Of a DNA stretch of 64,000 bases, positions 4,217 to 26,027 are shown piece by piece (within the stretch, counting starts at the first letter, position 1; every line of letters starts with the position of its first letter). The DNA is from Gemmatimonadota bacterium. GTDB taxonomy: Bacteria > Gemmatimonadota > Gemmatimonadetes > Gemmatimonadales > Gemmatimonadaceae. A model generated the notes under the pieces. That model was not told where the DNA came from. It was given only the letters and a program-made list of their open reading frames with translations, and did not search any database. The position numbers and the translations under genes were made by a program. The DNA lies in the NCBI GenBank assembly GCA_003134685.1, contig PLCA01000003.1:369174-433173 (forward strand), in the 5' to 3' direction.

Positions 4217-4572
4217 GACCGCATTCAGTACTCGTAGCAATCGCCGCTGTGAGCATCAGCGTGACCTACGCCAGTCGATTCGCGCACGCGTCAACGCCGA
4301 GTCAGGACCCGCCAGGCAAGGCTCCGTACGAGGACAACTGTCGGAAATGCCACGGCGTGCGCGGCGTCGCACCGAAAACGATGAAGGCCAAGTTCCCGAA
4401 GATCGTGACGTTCGACGCGGAGTTCTTCGAAAAGCACTCCAAAGATTCGATTGTGACGATACTGACGAAAGGCAAAGACGAGGACATGAAGTCCTTCAAG
4501 GGCAAGCTGAGTCACGAGCAGATGGAGGCGGTGGCCGACTACATCAAGCTGTTCGGCCAGAAGGAAAAGTAG
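4213..4572 (+). CDS. Small periplasmic monoheme cytochrome c
   Basis: A 119-residue class I-like cytochrome c with an N-terminal signal sequence (about residues 1-27), a single C-R-K-C-H heme site at 43-47 and a likely distal Met near M92, followed by the usual C-terminal helix (A-D-Y-I). GTG at 4213 is preceded by AAAGGAG at 4201-4207 and overlaps the stop of the cytochrome b gene, showing translational coupling. It is the natural electron acceptor of the bc complex and could deliver electrons to the decaheme cytochrome encoded next, or work in the opposite direction. The specific partner is inference. Confidence 0.92.
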   Translation: MRPHSVLVAIAAVSISVTYASRFAHASTPSQDPPGKAPYEDNCRKCHGVRGVAPKTMKAKFPKIVTFDAEFFEKHSKDSIVTILTKGKDEDMKSFKGKLSHEQMEAVADYIKLFGQKEK

Positions 4573-4634
4573 AAGGTCGGCGCGGACCCGCGCCGGCGAG
4601 GGGAATCCCTCAAGGAAATAGCACGGAGGGGATG

Positions 4635-25431: not shown

Positions 25432-25658
25432 CGGGGACCGGAGACCTGGCAGGGTCGTTAGGGAGGATCAAGCCGCAATATCTTAGCTGCGAACGTACGG
25501 CTAGGCAACGCCGGATGGATGCGGCCGCCGAAGGCGTTTTTCAGGCTACGCTCAGGCCGATTCCGTGTCGCGAGGGCATCGACCTTATTGCGGCTGAGCT
25601 TGGCCGGTTGGAGTCGCACGCGCTAAACTAGGTCGTCTGTAACAGCACCGAGGAAGCA

Positions 25659-25868
25659 ATGGACACGACGGGTCCGTCACAGAAAGCCAACATCGGAGTG
25701 AGCGAGCGGCGCAAGCGACTTACGTTTGGGATCGGGGCGCTTAGTGTCGGCGTCGTCATCGCCGTGCTCCTGATCGGCATCCGCGCCCCTCTCGTGTGGA
25801 GGCTTCCCCTCTTTCTTCCGTTCTGCGTTGGCGCACTCGGCGTCTTTCAGGCGCGGGACAAAACGTGA
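25659..25868 (+). CDS. Small two-TM membrane protein, stopped by an in-frame TGA
   Basis: The frame from ATG 25659 (preceded by GAGGAAG at 25649-25655) encodes 69 residues with two TM helices (about 22-41 and 46-63), then Q-A-R-D-K-T and a TGA at 25866-25868. The same frame continues to 26027 with a charged helix and a third TM helix. From memory, full-length homologues of this unnamed family read K-T-C-V at this position, so the TGA replaces a cysteine codon. The product is therefore either a truncated protein or, if TGA is read as selenocysteine, a 122-residue selenoprotein. See the downstream hairpin. Confidence 0.75.
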   Translation: MDTTGPSQKANIGVSERRKRLTFGIGALSVGVVIAVLLIGIRAPLVWRLPLFLPFCVGALGVFQARDKT

Positions 25869-26027
25869 GTAAAACTCGCATCGCGCGGTCAGCGCGATAT
25901 GGACAACGGCCCGCAACAGATTTCGGACGCCGCCGAGTTGCAGCAGGTTCAGCGGCAGGCGCGCGCGGTTTACGTCAAATCGGTCATCACGGCTGCAATT
26001 CTAACGGCGATCGCCCTCATTCCATAG
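25869..26027 (+). pseudogene. In-frame continuation of the 25659 gene after TGA
   Basis: Fifty-two codons in the same frame as the 69-residue gene follow the TGA without another stop until TAG at 26025-26027. They encode a basic helix with D-M-D-N-G-P-Q-Q, a Gln/Ala-rich amphipathic helix and a final TM helix (V-I-T-A-A-I-L-T-A-I-A-L-I-P). The conserved look of this part and its fit to the family's usual length show that it was, or still is, part of the same protein. It is labelled pseudogene only as the conservative default. Confidence 0.6.
25880..25898 (+). promoter_or_regulatory. SECIS-like hairpin 11 nt after an in-frame TGA
   Basis: A perfect 7-bp stem (25880-25886 with 25892-25898) closes a five-base loop GGTCA. 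The loop starts 18 nt after the TGA, inside the window known for bacterial SECIS elements, and its GGUC matches the loop of the E. coli fdhF element. The stem lacks the bulged U of fdhF. The hairpin lies in coding sequence of high GC content, so it could be chance. Confidence 0.4.

Follow-up and report, generated by a model that had tools for sequence, protein, structure and literature searches.

We analysed a window of 64,000 nucleotides, the whole stretch of DNA considered here, from the genome of a Gemmatimonadota soil bacterium (assembly GCA_003134685.1, contig PLCA01000003.1). A gene for a small membrane protein lies at 25659–26027 on the plus strand and carries an in-frame TGA. The frame starts with an ATG at 25659, just 3' of a Shine–Dalgarno-like GAGGA (25650–25654), and runs through 69 codons to its sole internal TGA at 25866–25868. 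This TGA is followed by 52 open codons that end in a TAG stop (26025–26027), and our frame reading thus agrees with an earlier note that described a frame with one TGA and 52 further codons. Reading through the TGA would give a protein of 122 residues with selenocysteine (Sec) at position 70 (MDTTGPSQKANIGVSERRKRL...FQARDKT-U-VKLASRGQRDMDNG...), as judged from the frame and from the homologues. TGA is an ordinary terminator in the window, where 17 of 26 long frames end with it. We consider it very probable, on the basis of sequence comparison, that the gene encodes a selenoprotein and that the TGA is read as Sec, because the corresponding column in the homologues holds TGA or Cys, the genome has selABCD, a SECIS-like hairpin (25880–25898) follows the TGA, and selection continues beyond it.

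Our read-through search detected the protein in 34 of 395 Gemmatimonadota genomes, which belong to 17 genera. Exactly one internal stop, always TGA, was present in 30 of the 34 carriers, and four had none. A later profile search of the same phylum returned these 34 genomes and one marginal partial match. A scan of a genome collection gave a further homologue (L056) in a record labelled 'uncultured proteobacterium'. The phylum of this homologue was then covered by a profile search in a genome set distinct from the 395 Gemmatimonadota, and 13 of 377 genomes were found to hold 16 genes; one TGA was present in ten of these genes and absent from the other six. In total, the family comprises 50 genes, of which 40 have one in-frame TGA and 10 have Cys.

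Only the stop counts were seen for two genes (G375 and G042), whose sequence was unread, and hence 38 of the 40 TGA genes were read. The TGA falls at the identical alignment column in all 38, and the other 10 genes have TGC or TGT there. The earlier note had stated that the family has Cys at this site and had proposed an alignment of homologues; the ten Cys genes confirm the statement, and the alignment has no codon besides TGA or Cys at this column in the 48 genes read. The motif around the TGA is [KRHG]-T-U-[VIMS] across the homologues, and N11, T69, U/C70 and G77 are the sole invariant residues in 45 sequences. The sequence evidence supports an equivalence of Sec and Cys at the site of residue 70.

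One homologue from the same genus as the window (L024; G291:C115:1748-2101) has TGC at the TGA site (DKT-C-V). The loop of its hairpin has drifted to GGCCA, and its genome retains tRNA-Sec and SelB. This gene is a recent Sec/Cys exchange. In the second phylum, a Sec paralogue coexists with a Cys paralogue in two genomes (L070 and L080 in G494; L071 and L081 in G701), and a third genome (G676) has two TGA copies (L068 and L079).

The structure of the read-through product was modelled with AlphaFold2 (45 sequences; mean pLDDT 92.8, pTM 0.80). The model and the hydropathy profile place transmembrane helix 1 at residues 14–40 (25698–25778, plus strand), where its start overlaps a basic SERRKR motif, and transmembrane helix 2 at residues 45–66 (25791–25856, plus strand), which ends four residues before Sec. 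Helix 3 (residues 91–120; 25929–26018, plus strand) has an amphipathic first half and a membrane-spanning second half. It is coded entirely 3' of the TGA, as had been claimed earlier for a transmembrane helix in this part of the frame. Between helices 2 and 3, the model has a short helix (71–75) and a small beta-hairpin (78–87). The product is therefore predicted by the model to be a three-helix membrane protein of about 120 residues.

It could be supposed that the TGA serves chiefly for regulated termination, that the two-helix protein of 69 residues is the functional one, and that Sec readthrough is minor or selenium-dependent. This would be in accord with the two complete transmembrane helices that are already encoded before the TGA, and with the fact that Sec insertion is often inefficient. 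However, the conserved U70, G77 and R79 and the whole of helix 3 lie at or past the TGA, and the Cys homologues are full length. Moreover, dN/dS past the TGA (0.09–0.52) is similar to that of the region before it and just as low. Judged by sequence divergence, purifying selection constrains the parts of the protein on either side of the TGA equally strongly. A regulated stop is therefore very unlikely in our view.

The earlier note had proposed to look for selA, selB, selC and selD, and all four are present in the genome of the window (3.63 Mb, 98% complete). The selB match was over the cut-off, and the scores for selA and selD were 571.7 and 376.7 bits, respectively; SelD is the Cys form. The tRNA-Sec gene (69 bits) adjoins selD and is called by ARAGORN as tRNA-SeC with anticodon tca. 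No Gemmatimonadota carrier among the 34 is without both tRNA-Sec and a SelB match over the cut-off: the two carriers without tRNA-Sec have SelB over the cut-off, and the three without such a SelB match have tRNA-Sec. We found tRNA-Sec in 32 of the 34 carriers compared with 279 of the 395 genomes overall (Fisher P = 0.0007, with related genomes not fully independent). In the second phylum, tRNA-Sec was present in all nine TGA-bearing genomes and absent from two of the four Cys-only genomes. Because about 71% of the 395 Gemmatimonadota genomes have tRNA-Sec and only 9% have the family, other selenoproteins must maintain the Sec trait in this phylum.

Termination at UGA is leaky in bacteria, and the codon could be read as an amino acid other than Sec, by near-cognate readthrough or in a reassigned code. 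However, TGA terminates the majority of long frames in the window as noted above, and the residue that substitutes at the column is always Cys, never Trp, Arg or Gly. The presence of a SECIS-like element together with selABCD also argues against this explanation, to which we give hardly any chance.

The bacterial SECIS-like hairpin begins 11 nt past the TGA, on the plus strand. Its sequence is ATCGCGC-GGTCA-GCGCGAT, in which 25880–25886 pairs with 25892–25898 as a perfect 7-bp stem around the 5-nt loop GGTCA (25887–25891). The loop lies 18 nt past the TGA, and the MFE was computed as −11.2 kcal/mol. Folding thus gave the same stem, loop and offset as the earlier note had claimed. The published model of bacterial SECIS elements (PMC13188914) requires a loop of 3–9 nt whose first two positions contain a G, a stem of 4–16 bp, a spacing of 16–37 nt and an MFE no higher than −7.5. 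We applied these constraints by hand and found that the hairpin satisfies all of them (5-nt loop, 7 bp, GG, 18 nt, −11.2 kcal/mol), so the claimed match of loop position and GGUC to the bacterial SECIS rules also stands. Among the 1,733 TGA triplets that both strands of the window contain, only two precede a GGTC-loop hairpin whose stem is perfect, has 7 bp or more and lies at the right distance. When the peptide is recoded with synonymous codons, about 5% of the recodings give an equally long stem. Taken by itself, such a hairpin is not very unusual in a single sequence, and therefore the evidential weight rests on the homologues.

GGT encodes the loop Gly in 30 of the main subfamily's 31 TGA genes, but accounts for only 43 of the 266 Gly codons at other positions of these genes (P = 5.8 × 10⁻²⁰). 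The loop codon is GGT in only one of nine Cys forms. Stem pair 18–30 is GC in 28 genes, AU in two and UA in one, and is never broken; pairs 17–31, 19–29, 20–28 and 21–27 are invariant. The changes at Ser TCG/Arg CGC, to TCA/CGT in L070 and L071 and to TCT/CGA in L048, are compensatory and synonymous on both sides. As a control, slid structures paired far worse, and no shuffle matched the observed covariation score. The GGT bias and the doubly synonymous covariation at one pair show that the hairpin is under selection as RNA beyond coding. Part of its conservation is due to coding, because the hairpin overlies the conserved peptide A-S-R-G-x-R-D.

As the simpler alternative, the earlier note had named a nonsense mutation of one base (TGC to TGA) or an error in sequencing, with a hairpin that arose by chance in GC-rich coding DNA. 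This explanation could draw on the Cys codons of relatives such as the same-genus L024 and on the 5% of recodings with an equally long stem, but it cannot explain an identical TGA in about 40 genes of two phyla, purifying selection that persists past the TGA, a synonymously conserved hairpin loop and carriers that have the Sec machinery, and its probability is negligible.

In the selenoprotein reading, which we prefer, SelB with selenocysteyl-tRNA(Sec) would recognise the GGUC-loop hairpin 18 nt 3' of the UGA. The UGA at 25866–25868 would then be decoded as Sec, and the 122-residue protein would be made instead of the truncated form of 69 residues. By its mechanism this would be an ordinary SelB/SECIS selenoprotein, and the novelty lies in the protein. 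The three helices would be located in the inner membrane. Basic residues precede helix 1 and occur in the Sec loop, which suggests an N-in topology, and Sec would therefore be located at the cytoplasmic face. The motif [KR]-T-U-[VI]-x-L-A-x-R-G would be found at this face just past helix 2, where it may act as a thiol/selenol redox centre or as a sulfane-sulfur/selenium relay centre.

A Cys lies three residues ahead of the N-I-G motif in many members, from other families and from the second phylum. This N-terminal Cys sits on the same side as Sec and may be its Se–S partner in those members. The window protein lacks it, and in its own group a low-molecular-weight thiol or another protein would serve as the partner. 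No second Cys common to all members was found. We also compared about 40 gene neighbourhoods and found no conserved operon partner; apart from one divergent neighbour in the second phylum, the shared gene order was mostly that of close relatives. In one genome of the second phylum only (L107), the gene directly upstream of the homologue is peroxiredoxin-like (FYRGGWCPIC) and overlaps its start codon. This overlap suggests translational coupling there, and for a thiol/peroxide context it is no more than a hint.

A function in thiol/selenol redox chemistry or in a sulfur/selenium relay at the membrane interface has, in our estimate, about an even chance. The redox role is weakly founded because there is no conserved operon partner, fold match or universal second Cys. 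We suggest more tentatively, and with some doubt, that the protein may be a membrane-embedded selenoenzyme of a new kind, built as a bundle of three helices with a lone Sec at the cytoplasmic face and without a thioredoxin fold or CxxU, that carries out redox or sulfur/selenium chemistry. This suggestion includes the N-terminal Cys of many members and a membrane substrate such as a quinone, a lipid peroxide or a persulfide.

The window protein had no match in NCBIfam release 20.0 at E values up to 10. When the 45 members were compared with NCBIfam at E values up to 1, no selenoprotein family was among the matches listed (25 of 29). No Pfam family matches the window protein or, significantly, its relatives. 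There was no match in the PDB by sequence or among plasmids and no meaningful match in PHROGs, and an Rfam E-value scan of the locus gave sub-threshold chance matches only. The fold searches returned no match of note (Foldseek, best E 2.4; VIA-align, best Z 6.2), both values being uninformative for helical bundles. A 2026 catalogue (PMC13188914) has 119 selenoprotein families or subfamilies, and none was recognisable as that of the window protein in our comparison with its Table 1, which covered the NCBIfam/Pfam models and left out rows with PTHR or cd identifiers. The families that it lists from Haft and Tolstoy 2025 mostly have NCBIfam models, none of which matched. The open literature that we searched held nothing relevant on selenoproteins in Gemmatimonadota or on selenoproteins of this kind. 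We rate the protein as a new selenoprotein family, which matches no described family that could be checked.

The gene resembles those of SelB/bSECIS selenoproteins, such as the E. coli formate dehydrogenases and the families in PMC13188914, in its in-frame UGA, bSECIS hairpin, Cys homologues and selABCD. Unlike the families of that catalogue, the window protein fits none of the named NCBIfam/Pfam models. A thioredoxin-like fold or a redox motif is present in the majority of catalogued selenoproteins but not in the window protein, which is predicted to be a small integral membrane protein that lacks both a UxxC/CxxU motif and a thioredoxin fold. The Deep-Sep proteins DG, DW and DF (PMC12013277) are likewise hypothetical proteins predicted from Cys/Sec pairs, but their NCBIfam models (NF049953, NF041197 and NF049942) are absent among the matches listed for the window family.

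The most frequent weak Pfam match was the YgaP-like transmembrane domain (PF11127, YgaP-like_TM), which was found for six of the 45 members (best E 0.042) and not for the window protein. This domain shares N-[IM]-G...R..R, two helices and a subsequent T-C with the family. However, the window family lacks the CPxY motif and has an added third helix. Kinship with PF11127 is suggestive, but it falls below the Pfam gathering cut-off and is far from significant, with an hhalign probability of 14% over 24 columns, and was not accepted.

The present analysis would thus add a selenoprotein family that is backed by about 40 TGA genes in two phyla. The selenoproteome of Gemmatimonadota is hardly covered in the open literature searched, despite the tRNA-Sec in 279 of 395 genomes. 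Because standard gene calling is expected to stop at the TGA, annotation would overlook the family or show it as a truncated two-helix protein. The invariant N, T-U and G residues allow a direct mutational test of the new membrane selenol site.

A second TGA subfamily (L043, L044, L045, L050 and L051) has the hairpin GCGCT-CGGGG-AGCGC, with a 5-bp stem and without GGUC, a point against the selenoprotein reading; in L044, A-T replaces one G-C pair. The loop CGGG[GA] of this subfamily is still compatible with the published N-G-[G/U] loop pattern, and its difference from GGUC could be used to study the loop specificity of SelB. G143 (in L103) was grouped with this subfamily, which lies within the same phylum.

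Elsewhere in the window, a second TGA with a GGTC hairpin (minus strand, 4612) was rejected as a candidate, as it is intergenic/antisense, next to c-type cytochrome genes, and outside any long frame. A strong GC hairpin lies at 4562–4620 (GGCGCGGGTCCGCGCC) between two c-type cytochrome genes, with a TGA before it on the minus strand. Although this hairpin resembles a SECIS element, it has no long open frame and may be a terminator.
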